Below, in pieces: positions 3,258-52,683 of a stretch of 64,000 nt of DNA. The position numbers and the translations under genes are program-made. Under the pieces are notes generated by a model. That model made no database searches. It was given only the letters and a program-made list of their open reading frames with translations, and was not told where the DNA came from. Origin of the DNA: a virus. The DNA lies in IMG/VR virus record IMGVR_UViG_3300042922_000827, positions 1 through 64,000 of that record. The stretch is one strand, 5' to 3'. Position 1 is the stretch's first letter, and each line of letters starts with the position of its first letter.

Positions 3258-5105
3258 TTAGGATGCTCGCATTGCGGAAATTTTGAAGATTTCGGTTTGT
3301 ACAAAATCTTTATACGTAACTTTAATAACAGCATAAAAGATCTTATTAGCTTCATATGCGCTATCTCTTGTATATACAAGTTCAATAGTATTGAATTTTG
3401 TAGTATATCTATCGAGAATAGCTTGAACGTCATCTTTATATTTAGTCAGATCATCGCCTGTAATAAAGTTATAACGTATTTTTGGACATTTTACGCGAAT
3501 TTCTTTAATTAACTCTTGAGTCATTAACACATTGTGCAACCAAGAAAGCTGAGTAAGTCTTTCTTGAGAAGTGTATTCGGATTCTAGAGTAAGTAAATCG
3601 CTATAATACGTAGCATAATTAATTCGGTTATCGTCGAAATATTGTTTTTGATCGACTTTAGGAGTATTCTTAGGCACAAAGTTTACAGTTCCACTAATTA
3701 CCTCTGGGAATGTAACTTCATACAATTGACCACAAAATGGGCGAGCCCTACCATTTAAGAAATGCTTAACGAAATTAGTGCACATAGTGTACATAATTGT
3801 TATAGTAATTTGCTTTTTGGTATAAGGATCTTTAACATCCCAGCTATTATGATATGTAGCACAAAACCTATTTCTTAAATTTTCAGCATTGGCTAATTTA
3901 ATCTCTTCAATTGAAGTAAGACCGGTGCCCATATCACGGAAATAAAACATATCTTCGCGGAATGTTGTTAAGTTTTCTATTTCTCGTTTTACAATAGCTG
4001 GATAATTGGCATCAAATACAACGTCAATTCTGCTATTGTCTAAATCATAAATCTCGTCGCCGGCAGTTCCATTAAATACTTTTACAAGCTCACTTGCATA
4101 AGTATTTGCAACTATAGGACGATCTCCGAATAAACCATTGCTTCCACCAACAAGGCTGATTCCTGTTATAGAATCTAGCTGTACTGTAGAATCGATGATA
4201 ATTTCATCATATGTTTGACCAAATAAATCACACCCGAATAATACATCGGAATATTCAAATTCGCTAGTATCCACTCCAGAAATATATGCAACGTTTTCCA
4301 TAAATGCAGTAATTTCATCTTCGAACATTTTGCTACGAATTTGATTGGATTTTGAGCTAATAACATTTTGAAGAGAAATGTTTGAATCTTTTTCAATGAT
4401 ATCAGGATTAATAGTAAATGTCATTGATTCCAATTCTGTACCATTTTCGATAACTTTCAAAATGTATTTTACATAATCAACTGGTCTGCTGGCAGATGTA
4501 TCTGCATAAATACGGAATTTTTTATTAGAGACACCACGACCATTATCTGCAATTAAGAATAATGGATATTGATCATCCTCACCAATTGTATTTTGGTGAG
4601 CATTATCAGCCAAGAAAGCGGCTGCCATAGAAGGTAAACTATTTCCTGCAATATTAACGGTTTTCAATTCATATGTGATTTTACATTTTTGAATCATGAC
4701 AGGTTGATTGCCAACTGGATCTGTCGTTTCATTATTTCCATCTGTATAAACTGGATTTCCGTTTTCATCGGATTTTTGAACAACTTCTTTAGCTACTTTA
4801 GCGACAACTCCAATATTGGCAAGAGTTGCATCTTCAGCAACAATACGTTTACAAAATAATCTGCCGCCAGCATTAATTACTTTAGCAGCCTGAATTAAAG
4901 TTTGACCATGTTTATAAAATGATGGTTTTGTTCCATAGAGTTTAAAGAATTTATCACCCATGAGCTGCTGATATTCTTCCGGACCTTTATCTGAAGAGAA
5001 TCCTGTCATAAAGACCGGACGATCGACAGTATCTTCCGCTGGAGACGCTATAGGATCGATATCACTCTGGTCGTCCCAGATAAACTTCGTTTGAGCATAG
5101 GACAT
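3258..5105 (-). CDS. Contractile tail sheath protein
   Basis: The 615-residue product has the layout of phage sheath proteins. Near residues 30-50 there is a PVFMTGFSSDKGP segment, followed by the typical NAGGRLFCKRIVAEDATLANIG region in the first domain. The C-terminal domain (from about residue 520) contains the KEIRVKCPKIRYNFI...AILDRYTTKFNTIEL segment and ends in a beta hairpin that would join neighbouring subunits. The sheath contracts to drive the tube through the host envelope. It is the first gene of a sheath-tube pair and has a good AAAGGAGG site. It does not carry the TTATATATTATA promoter, consistent with late expression. Confidence 0.85.
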   Translation of the reverse strand: MSYAQTKFIWDDQSDIDPIASPAEDTVDRPVFMTGFSSDKGPEEYQQLMGDKFFKLYGTKPSFYKHGQTLIQAAKVINAGGRLFCKRIVAEDATLANIGVVAKVAKEVVQKSDENGNPVYTDGNNETTDPVGNQPVMIQKCKITYELKTVNIAGNSLPSMAAAFLADNAHQNTIGEDDQYPLFLIADNGRGVSNKKFRIYADTSASRPVDYVKYILKVIENGTELESMTFTINPDIIEKDSNISLQNVISSKSNQIRSKMFEDEITAFMENVAYISGVDTSEFEYSDVLFGCDLFGQTYDEIIIDSTVQLDSITGISLVGGSNGLFGDRPIVANTYASELVKVFNGTAGDEIYDLDNSRIDVVFDANYPAIVKREIENLTTFREDMFYFRDMGTGLTSIEEIKLANAENLRNRFCATYHNSWDVKDPYTKKQITITIMYTMCTNFVKHFLNGRARPFCGQLYEVTFPEVISGTVNFVPKNTPKVDQKQYFDDNRINYATYYSDLLTLESEYTSQERLTQLSWLHNVLMTQELIKEIRVKCPKIRYNFITGDDLTKYKDDVQAILDRYTTKFNTIELVYTRDSAYEANKIFYAVIKVTYKDFVQTEIFKISAMRAS

Positions 5106-21746: not shown

Positions 21747-23912
21747 TTATTTATTTTTTACTCTATATCTAACAGCTGGGCAGAAGTTTTCTTTCTTAGG
21801 ATTATCATCAACAATGTTTGAAGTATCGCTAAGGAAGTTCTGCGGTTGCTTCATAAAGAAAAGATCCATATAAGATGTGGATGTTTTCTTAAATGATAAT
21901 GGGGTATATAATATCTTACTTAAATTTTGATATAATAAAGATATTACAATACTTGGATTGTCCATTAAAGATTGATTTAAAGTAAGAATTTGATACTGTT
22001 CATCTGGAGTATCCCAATCTGGTTTGTCTAGAACACTATTAATATTTCTTATTTGATTCATAAGAAGTATTTCTAAATGAACACTAGTAATATGCAATTT
22101 TCCTTCCAACACAAGTTCGATAAGTGTTTGAAGTACTCCATGTCTATTATATTTTTCTGGATCTTCTTTCTTTTTCTTAGGATCTACTTTCTTATTAAGC
22201 ACGTTTTGAATATCATCAAGCGTCTTGCTCAGTTCATTATTATGAAGTTTAATAAGGAATAGAGCAAAATCTTCTTCCTTACTTAATTCGTGCAAATCAA
22301 TCTGCAATGTATTCTCTTCTGTCGCTATTGCATTTTTCCATATATACGAATTAAAATCGGCAGAAATATACATTGGGTTGTCGTCTTCCGTTCTAATAAT
22401 CGATACATTTCCATCTTTAGTTTCTATAGCAAACTCTGTAATAAATTTATTATAGTTAACGTCTACTATATCACTATCATCATCGTCGTCATCTAAGTAA
22501 TCTGTCTTCTTGTAATCATCTTCATTTTCAGAACTTATCTTTTCAGGATCAATAATCATATAAGTTCCTTTTGGAAATTCATAGTCTGGAGACAATTGAA
22601 GTATATTGATATTGACAGAAAAGAATTTGTAAAATGCAGCGACCCAGCGCATCTTTTTAATAATAGTTTCCAATAGATGCTTTGCAGATAACTGTCGTTG
22701 TGTGAGTTCAGATGAAAGATTTTCTGCTGAATATTTACCGATCTTAATAGTATTATTTGTGTAAGCTAAGTCGCCATAACATTTATAGCATACACCATTG
22801 CCCCTAGCAGCAGATGCGCATGTCATTGGACTACGAAGATAAATTTTACTTCCGATTAGGAACTTATCTTTTCTACTTATATGGCGCTCTACACCATTAG
22901 GTGACATCCGATAGTATCTATCGGCTTGCATAATTAATATATCTTCATTCTTTATCTCGACTTCTTGATAATTATTACTATGGCAATCATATGTCGGATC
23001 GTCATGCAACTTCGTATCTATGTTATTTAGCCCTAAGATACGAGCAAAGTTACCGCTATATCCTACATTATTCTTCATTTGAATTTGTGCAACACGAGCA
23101 GAGCTAGAATCTATAAACTGGTTCAATATGCTATTTAAAGCTCCATTAATATAACTACCATCAATAATAGCTGGATGTACTCCGCCTTGACCATTTGGTT
23201 TCGACCCAATATGAATAGCAAATTCCTTATATTGTCTTGGATTGATACCTTCTTTTGATAAAAATGGATCTCTAAGACAATGATGGTAACCAATTAATTC
23301 TTTTGAATCTTTAATGATTATACTCATTGCCCGCTTTGCTCTCTCCATACCAAGATCTTTTACGTCTTCAATAGGAGTATTCTGAAATGATGTATGCAAA
23401 ATATCATCAAATTCTGGACTTGCATTCATTAATGCAATATCATCTTCTAAATTTATTGTATTTGCAATAAACATTGAAAATCTATCCACGTCAGTGAAAT
23501 TATACAGAGTATCATCAATAATATTATTCATAAGAACGCTGTCCATTTCTTTTCTAACAACGTCAACAAAATGCGTATCGATAAAATCTTTAATTGTATC
23601 TTGAGTGATAGCTTCATCGAAATACAAATGTTTGCCCACTATTTGCTTTCCAGATCTTACAATCAGATACCATTGAATTAGATTGAAGTATAAATCCATT
23701 ACAGATAATTCTACAACATCATCATTTCCCATATCTACAGTAATGAATGTTTTTTGCAGAAATTCCGTTTCGATTCCATCCTTCATTAAGTTAAGAACAC
23801 CTGTATAATGTTCTTGCCAGCTTGCCATGGTTATATCTTTGGTATGTAAAACCATGGTTCCTGTCTTAATAAGTTCATCGTAAATATAGTAGTTTTTAAA
23901 ATTGTTTAACAT
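21747..23912 (-). CDS. RNA polymerase beta' subunit, C-terminal half
   Basis: A 721-residue protein matching the C-terminal part of bacterial beta'. Residues 252-295 (GSYINGALNSILNQ, then SSSARVAQIQMKNNVGYSG) correspond to the bridge helix and trigger loop region. Four cysteines at 310, 365, 375 and 378 (the last three in SPMTCASAARGNGVCYKCYG) correspond to the second zinc site of cellular beta'. YSAENLSSELTQRQLSAKH near 394-412 matches the AAQSIGEPGTQLTMRTFH segment. An acidic insertion (YLDDDDDDSD) lies downstream. The N-terminal half is encoded at 55554-57188. Such split subunits are known from phiKZ/AR9-type phage polymerases. It has the phage promoter motif at 23984. Confidence 0.88.
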   Translation of the reverse strand: MLNNFKNYYIYDELIKTGTMVLHTKDITMASWQEHYTGVLNLMKDGIETEFLQKTFITVDMGNDDVVELSVMDLYFNLIQWYLIVRSGKQIVGKHLYFDEAITQDTIKDFIDTHFVDVVRKEMDSVLMNNIIDDTLYNFTDVDRFSMFIANTINLEDDIALMNASPEFDDILHTSFQNTPIEDVKDLGMERAKRAMSIIIKDSKELIGYHHCLRDPFLSKEGINPRQYKEFAIHIGSKPNGQGGVHPAIIDGSYINGALNSILNQFIDSSSARVAQIQMKNNVGYSGNFARILGLNNIDTKLHDDPTYDCHSNNYQEVEIKNEDILIMQADRYYRMSPNGVERHISRKDKFLIGSKIYLRSPMTCASAARGNGVCYKCYGDLAYTNNTIKIGKYSAENLSSELTQRQLSAKHLLETIIKKMRWVAAFYKFFSVNINILQLSPDYEFPKGTYMIIDPEKISSENEDDYKKTDYLDDDDDDSDIVDVNYNKFITEFAIETKDGNVSIIRTEDDNPMYISADFNSYIWKNAIATEENTLQIDLHELSKEEDFALFLIKLHNNELSKTLDDIQNVLNKKVDPKKKKEDPEKYNRHGVLQTLIELVLEGKLHITSVHLEILLMNQIRNINSVLDKPDWDTPDEQYQILTLNQSLMDNPSIVISLLYQNLSKILYTPLSFKKTSTSYMDLFFMKQPQNFLSDTSNIVDDNPKKENFCPAVRYRVKNK

Positions 23913-33063: not shown

Positions 33064-33912
33064 TTATAATTTAAAACAAAAATTCATTACTTCATTTTGA
33101 ATATGACGTTCTACTGGAACTACGATTCTATCATAATTCTTATCAACTAAAGTAACAGATTTGCCATCTTCTGATAATAGAATGCTTTCATAGAAAGTAT
33201 CAAAATTATTAACGATGGTATTAAGATTAGCAGACTCTGCCATAATATAATCTCTTACAGATGCGTTAGTGATAGGAGTTATAATTTGGAATCCTTCTTC
33301 AACTAATTGAATATTGCCATGTTCTTCTACCATCTTAGGAATATAGATATATTTATTAGCCTGCGCGGAAGCTCCCTCGCTAATAATTTTAGTAGTATAT
33401 GCTTTAGGATGTGATGGGTAATAAACACGGTCATATGTAACTATCTTAAGATTACGCACATATGCTTTACCTGCATTTTGTATAATAGTACCTAATGCTC
33501 TAAGAGAAAATGATGGTTTAGCCCCATCTTTAAGATCATCGTTAAATGATCTTCCTAAATCATTATTAGTTCCACGGAAGTTTGCTTTTACAAGATTGCC
33601 TTCCATCCACAACTTAGTATACCAAACTTGTTCCATGAATGGGTCGACTTTCTGTTGTCTTGCTAAGTCATTAGCCGATGGATGACCAGCTTCACCTTTA
33701 AAATTTCCACTAGTTACCATTTCTTGCTGCTTAGCACAATGAATTTCTTTATATAGATCATCATGGGCATAGCATCGTTTATTGCGATTTTCTTCCTCGG
33801 CTTCTTGAATTATACCTTCGGCAATAACGAAATCTCTGTTTTGATTCACTATATTAAATTCTACGTCTTTAGCAGACGATTCACATATAATATATGCTAA
33901 CGTAGTATTCAT
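33064..33912 (-). CDS. Prohead maturation protease
   Basis: A 282-residue protein with the phage prohead protease pattern of T4 gp21/herpesvirus-like serine peptidases. The His motif is FKGEAGHPSANDLARQQ with His77, and the Ser motif is AKPSFSLRALG with Ser134 or Ser136. The enzyme sits in the immature capsid and trims scaffold and capsid proteins before packaging. The gene has a AAAGGAGG site and no TTATATATTATA motif, consistent with late expression. Confidence 0.85.
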   Translation of the reverse strand: MNTTLAYIICESSAKDVEFNIVNQNRDFVIAEGIIQEAEEENRNKRCYAHDDLYKEIHCAKQQEMVTSGNFKGEAGHPSANDLARQQKVDPFMEQVWYTKLWMEGNLVKANFRGTNNDLGRSFNDDLKDGAKPSFSLRALGTIIQNAGKAYVRNLKIVTYDRVYYPSHPKAYTTKIISEGASAQANKYIYIPKMVEEHGNIQLVEEGFQIITPITNASVRDYIMAESANLNTIVNNFDTFYESILLSEDGKSVTLVDKNYDRIVVPVERHIQNEVMNFCFKL

Positions 33913-34006
33913 CTAATTACCTCCTTTGCTTTATATCTATGTTTAAACATATCTAATACAAGCAAATATATGATTTGCCTAATTATGTAATAGTTTGAGT
34001 TTTCAT

Positions 34007-34018
34007 TCATATATTATA
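34007..34018 (+). promoter_or_regulatory. Phage promoter motif, one mismatch
   Basis: TCATATATTATA followed by AAAGTGAATAG, close to the consensus. It opens the short unit that ends at the hairpin at 34226. Confidence 0.6.
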
Positions 34019-34060
34019 AAAGTGAATAGTAATAAAATTACATTCGAAGGGATTAAATCT

Positions 34061-34129
34061 ATGAGTAAAATTAAATTTCGAATGAGTGAAAAATATACGA
34101 AAGGAGAACTAGTATACTCAATAGCCTAA
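34061..34129 (+). CDS. Possible 22-residue peptide
   Basis: Starts MSKIKFRMSEKY and ends LVYSIA; GAAGGGA lies eight bases upstream. An internal ATG at 34082 gives a 15-residue form. Basic and amphipathic-like. Coding status uncertain. Confidence 0.35.
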   Translation: MSKIKFRMSEKYTKGELVYSIA

Positions 34130-34180
34130 CCTAAAATAAAATGAGGGCAGTTATTTTATTATGGGGGGAGGGCGTTTCGA

Positions 34181-34216
34181 ATGGATAACGAAACTACTGG
34201 ATTCGAACACGAATAG
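34181..34216 (+). CDS. Possible 11-residue peptide with very strong ribosome site
   Basis: MDNETTGFEHE preceded by GGGGGGAGGG eight bases upstream, one of the strongest ribosome sites in the window. It ends ten bases before the terminator stem. Coding status uncertain; the purine tract could instead be an antisense or protein-binding site. Confidence 0.35.
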   Translation: MDNETTGFEHE

Positions 34217-34225
34217 TCAATAGAT

Positions 34226-34258
34226 ATAACCGCAAATGAATAATTCATTTGCGGTTAT
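34226..34258. terminator. Bidirectional terminator
   Basis: A 15-bp stem (ATAACCGCAAATGAA and complement) with a TAA loop, between the small plus-strand unit and the 34275 gene. Confidence 0.87.
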
Positions 34259-34274
34259 ATATTTATTAATTTGA

Positions 34275-34820
34275 CTATTTATTTTTTTGATAATTTTTGC
34301 CAGTTGTAACCTTTTCTACTTTATCTGCAACTACTTGTTCTTTAACTTCTAGAGTAGCTGCTTCTACAGCAGATTCAATTTTTTCAGTAGACTCTGGAAC
34401 CTCTTCGGTAGTTTCTGCTATAGGCAGTACAGGAGCGATAACTCTTTCTTGAACTACTGGAACTTCTTCCGCAGTTTGTTCAGATTTGATTTCGACTGTT
34501 TGTTCAAGTTTAACTTCCACTTGTTCGGGCTGCGACTCTATAACCAATTTGCCATCTACCTGTTTTACATCCATAATTACAGCCTTTAGCTCTTCTGGTT
34601 TTGCAATTACGATAGAATTATCTTTATTGTAATTGGTGAAGTCTAAAGGAATAGTTCTGTTTCCGATTACTTCTTCAACCTTTGCTTTACTTCTAATGCA
34701 GATAAGAATCTCATTAATTGTAAGGGTAATACCATTTGCCACCCCAGCTACAGGATATCTCAATCCAGTAATAGGCGCGTTAGTTTTTACATTTACTTTC
34801 TTTTTTGTTACTGTTGTCAT
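34275..34820 (-). CDS. Unrecognised protein with acidic, repetitive C-terminal half
   Basis: A 181-residue protein with a AGGAGGAAAT site. Residues 1-100 form a small alpha/beta domain starting MTTVTKKKVNVKT. Residues 100-165 are Glu/Val/Pro/Thr-rich with repeated EQTVEIKSEQTAEEVP-like units, probably an extended linker. It ends in a basic tail (TGKNYQKNK). Possibly a virion decoration or head protein, which often have such linkers; no family recognised. Confidence 0.66.
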   Translation of the reverse strand: MTTVTKKKVNVKTNAPITGLRYPVAGVANGITLTINEILICIRSKAKVEEVIGNRTIPLDFTNYNKDNSIVIAKPEELKAVIMDVKQVDGKLVIESQPEQVEVKLEQTVEIKSEQTAEEVPVVQERVIAPVLPIAETTEEVPESTEKIESAVEAATLEVKEQVVADKVEKVTTGKNYQKNK

Positions 34821-40684: not shown

Positions 40685-42442
40685 TTATTCTGGGTCGATA
40701 TAAACATTATACTCTGGAGCTTCGCACAAATATTGATTTGTGCTAAACACCAATCCAATGATCTTAGATATAGCATCTAAAATAACTTGATCCGATTTGA
40801 TAGAGCTTAATACATTTCCATCAAATTCTTCAGTTCTGATATTGAATGGTGTTTCATTCATAATGCACCGCAATGTTAAATTAATAGCGTTGGCTTTATT
40901 ACCACCACAATATGCTAAGTATAGTGAAGAGATAAGCTCGGCATATGCACTATTGAGTACAGCATAAATATTAAACTTTTCATTAGATTTCATTTTTTCA
41001 AAATCTTCTTCGGTATAATCTTTTACTGACTCTTTTTCTAATTGATTGAATGCTCGGAACCCTTCAAAATTAGCACCAAATCCATATCCGTCTTTTGCAG
41101 CACTACGGCAATTTAATACAGCATCTTCTACAAGATCTTTTAATGCATCTCGATCAGTCATAGAAATACCACCAACTAAGTAATCAACCATATTGGCTTT
41201 GAGAGAATTGATTCTCCTTTTAAGGATGCCAATTTTAGTAATTTCTTCTTTTGTTGATTCGTAGTTTTCCAGCATCGAATAAAGACCATTAATAAGCTCG
41301 TTATACACGTCGCTTTTAGTTCCGTCTTCATTATGCATAAGCTTAGGATTGACAACTTTAGTTTTCATATTATCCGATTCGATAAGTTCGGCTTCTCCGG
41401 CAAATTCATGAAGATTTTGTGGAGTTGCTGCGAGACCGGCAGAAATATCAATTTGCTGTAACTTAGGATCAATATATTTCTTAATCAATTTAGCACCACT
41501 AAGGCGAGCCAAGTCTACAAGAAGATCCCCCTTAAATATATTTGTTACAATAGAAAATGGAGGTCTATTTTCGGCTGGCATAGATGCTAATTGCCCAATT
41601 AAAGAATCTACCATAGCATCCATATCATTTCCTAATTCTGGGCAGAAAACAACTGTTGGGACTAATTTGGCTCCAGCTGCATGTCCTTCTTCAGATGATG
41701 GAAAGAAAACATTTTGGTATATAATTTGATCTAAGAAAGCCCGCATTTCTGGAGTATTAATTTCTCCATCGAATACATAAACTTTAGCATTACGAATAGA
41801 AGAAATTTTTCTTGAGCTATCTGTAATAAATGCTGGATCAGAATACCCGCTATCGAAAGTTAATCCATCATAAACTTTCTGAACATTATGTATAGAATTA
41901 GAAACTCCAACGTCTATAAATACATCCATACCATGCTCGGCATAAATATTTTTAATATTTGCTGCCACCTCAGTATTTCCATTTGTAGCGATCATAGCAA
42001 TACGATAAATATCATCGATTGTCGTTTCTTTCTTATTTGCTTCTATAATTTTGATTGCTTCGCCTACAGCATTCTGTAGCTGGCTGATCAATTCATTGTC
42101 ACTAATAGCATATTTTTTGCTCGCTTCTACAAGCGCATTAAAAATAATAGCAGAAAGTATAATAGCAGAAGTAGTACCATCGCCCACTTCAACTACGATT
42201 CTTCTAGTAATATCCTCTAGATCGTCACGCATCGTATATTCAATAGGTCTATTAAATTTAATAGATCCTAAAATAGTATGACCATCTTTAGAATATTTTG
42301 TTAAAGCGCCTTTTTGTCTAATAGCAGTAACAGATCCTGTTGGACCGAAAGAGTTTATTAATGAATTTGAAATGATTTCTAGAGCTTTCTGCTGTGCTTC
42401 TCTTACCTTGTGTTTTGGAACGATATTTGTATAAACTGTCAT
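40685..42442 (-). CDS. GroEL-like group I chaperonin
   Basis: A 585-residue protein related to GroEL. The ATP site has GPTGS near residues 33-37 (GroEL GPKGR) and VGDGTTSAIILSAII near 87-100 with the catalytic Asp88. An apical segment YDGLTFDSGYSDPAFITD corresponds to GroEL EGMQFDRGYLSPYF. Phage chaperonins of this type, for example in phages EL and OBP, fold phage proteins and can work without a GroES; no GroES gene is seen here. Its ATG overlaps the TGA of the upstream gene (ATGA), so the two are translationally coupled. Confidence 0.88.
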   Translation of the reverse strand: MTVYTNIVPKHKVREAQQKALEIISNSLINSFGPTGSVTAIRQKGALTKYSKDGHTILGSIKFNRPIEYTMRDDLEDITRRIVVEVGDGTTSAIILSAIIFNALVEASKKYAISDNELISQLQNAVGEAIKIIEANKKETTIDDIYRIAMIATNGNTEVAANIKNIYAEHGMDVFIDVGVSNSIHNVQKVYDGLTFDSGYSDPAFITDSSRKISSIRNAKVYVFDGEINTPEMRAFLDQIIYQNVFFPSSEEGHAAGAKLVPTVVFCPELGNDMDAMVDSLIGQLASMPAENRPPFSIVTNIFKGDLLVDLARLSGAKLIKKYIDPKLQQIDISAGLAATPQNLHEFAGEAELIESDNMKTKVVNPKLMHNEDGTKSDVYNELINGLYSMLENYESTKEEITKIGILKRRINSLKANMVDYLVGGISMTDRDALKDLVEDAVLNCRSAAKDGYGFGANFEGFRAFNQLEKESVKDYTEEDFEKMKSNEKFNIYAVLNSAYAELISSLYLAYCGGNKANAINLTLRCIMNETPFNIRTEEFDGNVLSSIKSDQVILDAISKIIGLVFSTNQYLCEAPEYNVYIDPE

Positions 42443-52172: not shown

Positions 52173-52496
52173 TTAAATCCCCTCTATATTTATTTTACCT
52201 TTATTTATATACTCTTGCTGTTCTTTTAAAGACAGAAACATAGGTCTAAACCATGCTTGCGGGCAATTATCGTCTATATATTTTAGTGCAATAGGTCTTG
52301 CTGAAATTATAATAATCTGTAGCATCGGAGCCGAACCATAATCTTCTTTAGTATCTCCCCATCTTCCTTTCATTTCTTTCATTGATTCGTCTTCTACAAT
52401 TAATTTGACTACGTCTTCAATTTGATTTTCAAACATTCCATTCTTATGCAAATATTCTTTTAAGCCATCTAATAGAGTAGGTGATTTTTTATCCAT
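52173..52496 (-). CDS. Small hypothetical protein
   Basis: A 107-residue alpha/beta protein with an AAGGGGGAAG site. A conserved-looking core MLQIIIISARPIALKYIDDN followed by PQAWFRPMFLS recalls small phage and Firmicutes proteins of unknown function. It lies two bases upstream of the next gene and is probably cotranscribed. Confidence 0.65.
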   Translation of the reverse strand: MDKKSPTLLDGLKEYLHKNGMFENQIEDVVKLIVEDESMKEMKGRWGDTKEDYGSAPMLQIIIISARPIALKYIDDNCPQAWFRPMFLSLKEQQEYINKGKINIEGI

Positions 52497-52509
52497 TATA
52501 ACTTCCCCC

Positions 52510-52629
52510 TTATAAATTAAATTGCCAATTTTTCATCATTTCGATTTGTTCGCTAGTAAATGAGTCGATATTATTATCGCTCAAACATACTTCTAGCATT
52601 AATCTAACTAACTCTTCATTTTTATCCAT
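52510..52629 (-). CDS. 39-residue small protein
   Basis: MDKNEELVRLMLEVCLSDNN and onwards to a KNWQFNL end. A TAAGGGGG site precedes the ATG at 52629 and the phage promoter motif is 30 bases further upstream. Acidic and helical. It leads the operon that continues to 50840. Confidence 0.66.
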   Translation of the reverse strand: MDKNEELVRLMLEVCLSDNNIDSFTSEQIEMMKNWQFNL

Positions 52630-52658
52630 TATAAATCCCCCTTATTTATTCTCATTTA

Positions 52659-52670
52659 TATAATATATAA
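52659..52670 (-). promoter_or_regulatory. Phage promoter motif
   Basis: An exact TTATATATTATA on the minus strand followed by TAAATGAGAATAA, an excellent match to the extended consensus. It lies between the terminator at 52684 and the 39-residue gene. Confidence 0.72.
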
Positions 52671-52683
52671 TCAAAAAGAAATA

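Follow-up and report, generated by a model that had tools for sequence, protein, structure and literature searches.

In an AR9-like jumbo phage represented by a 64,000-nucleotide stretch of viral DNA (the window; bases 1-64000 of an IMG/VR record of 87,773 bases, ~87.8 kb), the gap between the head maturation protease gene and the gene preceding it probably contains a miniature early transcription unit, either coding for micropeptides or left over from a larger early mRNA. The features described in the initial annotation are confirmed, but most of them are commonplace in this phage. A discrete transcription unit at this locus is well supported, because its predicted promoter matches an experimentally defined class. 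We propose that the injected virion RNA polymerase would start at G34024 and produce an RNA of ~240 nt ending at the hairpin at 34224-34260. Since the only frames with ribosome sites on this RNA have 22 and 11 codons, it would represent an early mRNA shrunk to micropeptides or the relic of a gene, lying in a slot that may take up early cassettes, flanked by the protease gene and its predecessor. The motif, the reading frames, the hairpin and the occupancy of the slot in relatives are read directly from the sequences.

The phage and its early promoter

The window encodes the beta subunit of a multisubunit RNA polymerase (21747-23912; phrog_3015, E 1.9e-49), a terminase, GroEL and a major head protein, and its head protease matches those of Bacillus phage Goe21 (32%), Listeria phage LPJP1 and Staphylococcus jumbo phages. 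Together, these genes identify the source, as judged by sequence, as an uncultivated AR9/PBS1-like jumbo phage, related to the giant Bacillus phage AR9. The GroEL-like chaperonin is encoded at 40685-42442 on the minus strand (phrog_5725, E 1.9e-52). In AR9, the virion RNA polymerase reads early genes from AAATATATATTAT-6N-G, the non-virion polymerase reads late genes from AACA-6N-TA/G, and an early promoter with a one-base deviation is inactive (PMC5312081). With this promoter class in hand, the gene-free stretch becomes readable, and the following features can be assigned:

33064-33912, minus: head maturation protease (Peptidase_S77), a late gene, one flank of the slot
33932-33943, minus: late (non-virion RNA polymerase) promoter AACATAGATATA of the protease gene, AR9 late consensus AACA-6N-TA/G, the other slot end
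34005-34024, plus: AR9-type early (virion RNA polymerase) promoter, variant ATTCATATATTAT-AAAAGT-G, predicted start G34024, from a motif scan
34024-34045, plus: 5'-terminal hairpin GAAU-A-GUAAU-AAA-AUUAC-AUUC, -4.0 kcal/mol for the first 30 nt
34043-34207, no strand: four TTCGAA copies (34043, 34077, 34176, 34202), from a word count
34061-34129, plus: ORF1, 22 codons, MSKIKFRMSEKYTKGELVYSIA, weak ribosome site GAAGGGA, from the ORF listing
34163-34172, plus: ribosome site GGGGGGAGGG of ORF2, 8-nt spacer to the ATG
34181-34216, plus: ORF2, 11 codons, MDNETTGFEHE, in the frame of ORF1, with TAA and TGA between them
34224-34260, plus: 17-bp hairpin (5 G-C of 17 pairs) with a T-rich tail, probable terminator
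34275-34820, minus: late gene of 181 aa, the other flank, at a conserved position before the protease gene

The gap between called genes (33913-34274, 362 bp) exceeds all others in the window, which agrees with the initial annotation of this region as its longest gene-free stretch. The unit runs on the plus strand, opposite to the surrounding late head genes, and thus resembles the early units of AR9 (Takahashivirus), which share the ATATATTAT-6N-G promoter, lie opposite to the late genes around them and have a late neighbour with an AACA-6N-TA promoter. The late promoter of the protease gene is a perfect match, placing its start site 20 nt upstream of the protease ATG.

The promoter motif noted in the initial annotation is present and is of the AR9 early type, not sigma-70; a scan for sigma-70 promoters gave no excess over shuffles. 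It consists of the core ATATATTAT followed by six nucleotides and G (34009-34024), and the site as a whole agrees with the extended AR9 consensus at 10 of 13 positions. Elsewhere the window carries nine near-identical early promoters of the form TTATATATTAT-6N-GA, eight of which continue as GAG and all of which lead to an ORF; the RNA polymerase beta-subunit gene is among the genes fronted by the early motif. Scored against the phage's own motif (TTATATATTAT-6N-GAG), the 34005-34024 site reaches 14.2 bits versus 24-30 for the nine strong copies, from which it departs by C for T and by GAA for GAG. Markov-simulated single-strand sequence (20 x 64 kb) gave five matches with a comparable score, a chance expectation of ~0.25 per strand per 64 kb. 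The C form recurs in six early promoters of the closest relative (G001) with CATATACTAT, and in G005/G007 as TACATATATTAT upstream of an ordinary early gene; the relatives' ordinary early genes are fronted by CATATATTAT and CATATACTAT forms. The site therefore reads as a weaker variant that fits the early virion polymerase motif of the AR9 group, and its predicted activity is likely but not certain, because the AR9 enzyme can reject single deviations. A small early gene absent from the ORF list lies at 52496-52672 of the window (minus strand), where an early promoter and a GGGGG ribosome site precede an ORF of 39 codons, itself followed by a 107-aa gene.

Reading frames and terminator of the predicted transcript

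The predicted RNA opens with a hairpin comparable to those at the 5' ends of several early transcripts of the window phage and of most in G001. ORF1 starts 37 nt past the predicted transcription start, within the 13-67 nt seen for the window's normal early genes. Both short frames reported earlier exist, and they share one frame; each start has a ribosome site at normal spacing, strong for ORF2 and weak for ORF1. The site GGGGGGAGGG, initially described as extreme, proved ordinary, because GGGGG-type ribosome sites are the norm in this phage: 18 of the 24 runs of five or more G in the window precede the start of an ORF of 30 or more codons. Two ORFs of at least 8 codons with Shine-Dalgarno (SD) sites appeared in only 1.6% of shuffles. 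The initial annotation had offered a regulatory RNA, a ribosome decoy or anti-SD element, and a micropeptide locus; because of the position of ORF1 at +37, like that of normal early genes, and the rarity of two SD-ORFs in shuffles, a micropeptide-coding (or relic) mini-mRNA fits best. Transcription, translation and any activity of the peptides we infer.

The common frame of ORF1 and ORF2 ends 7 nt before the hairpin at 34224-34260. Read through its stops, it would fit a decayed gene of ~51 codons, a reading that has no supporting homologue: neither ORF1, ORF2 nor the read-through frame (stops as X) had a homologue or family in the collections searched, and the peptides are not conserved in the relatives. 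The variant promoter, the weak ribosome site of ORF1 and this lack of peptide homologues all count against a micropeptide or relic mRNA. On balance, the locus probably codes for micropeptides or is a shrunken early gene, and a novel type of RNA is less likely.

The terminator claimed for the unit is indeed present as the 34224-34260 hairpin, whose tail is richer in T on the plus strand than on the minus strand, and it probably serves two transcripts. In five related records (L010, L011, L012, L014 and L049), a hairpin closes the homologue of the gene before the protease. Because relatives lacking the unit keep a late-gene terminator at this place, we consider the window's hairpin to be probably shared between the unit and the convergent late gene 34275-34820.

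The slot in relatives and alternative readings

Distinct records of relatives were found with proteases 42-60% identical to that of the window phage. In the closest, L007 (IMGVR_UViG_3300028048_000077; the same phage as G001; protease 60% identical), an early cassette occupies the equivalent slot at 4533-4950 (minus strand), on the equivalent strand relative to the protease gene, in the order TTATATACTAT-AAATAT-GAATAG, 5' hairpin, AAGGAGG, 97-codon ORF and strong terminator. This cassette shares with the window unit its place before the protease gene, strand, early promoter, 5' hairpin and terminator; it differs in holding an ordinary small gene whose ribosome site is strong, and no sequence similarity between the two was found. 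The slot measures 60-100 bp and has no cassette in seven distinct, more distant records (L008-L012, L014 and L049; proteases 42-49% identical). A cassette in L007 and none in these seven records indicate, at the sequence level, a protease-adjacent slot in which early cassettes come and go. The 97-aa protein has no match anywhere in the window's record, so descent of the unit from that gene is not demonstrated.

An unlikely alternative is a functional early non-coding RNA of ~240 nt, in which the micro-ORFs would be incidental and the TTCGAA repeats would form alternative long-range helices. The cluster of four TTCGAA copies in 165 bases, pointed out at the outset, is real and beyond chance: 4 of the 20 copies in the 64-kb window fall within the unit (P = 0.00035, ~0.0004, for this word alone), and when all rare hexamers are considered, two such clusters occur in the window (TTCGAA and one other) versus one in 20 simulations. 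CATTCGAA at 34041 has two possible partners, the TTCGAATG copies at 34077 and 34176, and in the fold ensemble the 34041-34176 helix (~0.45) competes with local hairpins (~0.53). A gene-less early unit with conserved stems in a relative, described below, and intergenic small RNAs in phiR1-37 and phiKZ speak for the same possibility. The phiR1-37 misc_4 RNA and the phiKZ candidates are likewise short (~100-300 nt) and lie in gene-free gaps; they were detected by RNA-seq, Grad-seq or northern blot, whereas the window unit is known from sequence alone and has micro-ORFs with ribosome sites.

Folding and conservation argue against such an RNA. The unit body without its terminator folds with z = -2.9, which is unexceptional and within the spread of 160 random 200-nt window segments (mean z -0.96, sd 1.63, minimum -7.4). 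Rfam gave nothing at the gathering threshold and only chance-level matches below it. Beyond the promoter, the unit body has no homologue or conserved sequence in the relatives; blastn against phages returned chance matches only, and exact DNA patterns of the unit were absent from IMG/VR. The primase as bait yielded no further relatives, nor did bacterial genome contigs contain one. The initial annotation made its proposal depend on conservation in close relatives, and as far as the relatives searched reach, the idea of a conserved RNA fails, because they show no sequence conservation. A regulatory RNA keeps some plausibility, but its fold is unexceptional; among the original proposals the micropeptide locus fares best, and the decoy and anti-SD elements are not supported.

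That no active unit exists, the promoter-like sequence being fortuitous or decayed and the hairpin terminating the late gene 34275-34820 only, we regard as decidedly unlikely. The weakness of the promoter relative to the window's others, the sensitivity of the AR9 virion polymerase to deviations and the hairpins of late genes at the equivalent place in relatives would be consistent with this explanation. Against it stand the low chance expectation for the promoter score, the C at the variant position in six G001 early promoters and in G005/G007, the T-richer hairpin tail on the plus strand, and the enrichment of SD-ORFs over shuffles. A ribosome decoy or anti-SD element is hardly credible despite the long purine run at 34163-34172, as runs of five to six G are this phage's everyday ribosome sites, an ATG follows 8 nt downstream, a single short site is indistinguishable from an ordinary start, and a run rich in purines corresponds to an SD rather than an anti-SD sequence.

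Early mini units in related phages

The micropeptide or relic mRNA proposed for the window has counterparts in G001, where other early mini units combine SD-ORFs of 10-34 codons with terminators. A permissive scan, false sites included, found no ORF of 45 codons behind 7-8 of the 21 early sites of G001, behind up to 9 of the 67 of G007 and behind 2 of the 32 of AR9. The window unit, whose longest frame has 22 codons, differs in this respect from AR9, where an ORF of 45 or more codons follows 30 of the 32 early-like sites scanned. These observations suggest that early mini units, with micro-ORFs or none, recur in AR9-like jumbo phages and have escaped annotation; should they be functional, they would be factors of immediate-early host takeover overlooked by gene callers. 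It is a long shot that the window unit itself makes a functional immediate-early product, whether a peptide of 11 or 22 residues or a TTCGAA-based switching RNA, acting on the host within minutes of infection, and that the unit belongs to a class of early units, poor in genes, that AR9-like phages carry.

Three related records contain a gene-less early unit of ~265 nt (L011:3201-3500 and L012/L013:3225-3515, minus strand) with an early promoter, a strong terminator and a fold z of -5.0 but no ORF of 45 codons. Of 289 aligned columns, 53 differ between its two versions, and 61 consensus pairs are intact. The differences avoid paired positions (10 of 148 paired versus 43 of 141 unpaired columns by the L013 fold, P 1e-7), more weakly so by the L011 fold (P 0.002). 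We consider it a candidate conserved early non-coding RNA. Homology of the window unit to it was rejected, as the two align in the promoter only.

In G001, four early mini units (G001:C1 56788(-), 79197(-), 56534(-) and 112028(+)) encode hydrophobic peptides of 26-34 residues, which occurred in no other record searched; two of them, MIMKFFIQFILGLLQSLIIELIKILIQMI and MMKILIQFILGLIESLIIELIKFLIF, are clear paralogues. At G001:C1 86942(+), 87110(+) and 100615(+), early promoters and terminators enclose ORF-free units of ~80-120 nt. The RNA from 87110 contains GGATTCACCTCCTTTCT, which would exceed the anti-SD tail of 16S rRNA by one base and which could also be just the complement of a ribosome site. 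Finally, at G001:C1 13747(-), an early promoter, a 10-codon ORF with a ribosome site and a terminator directly precede a 391-aa gene, an arrangement that resembles a leader-peptide attenuator.
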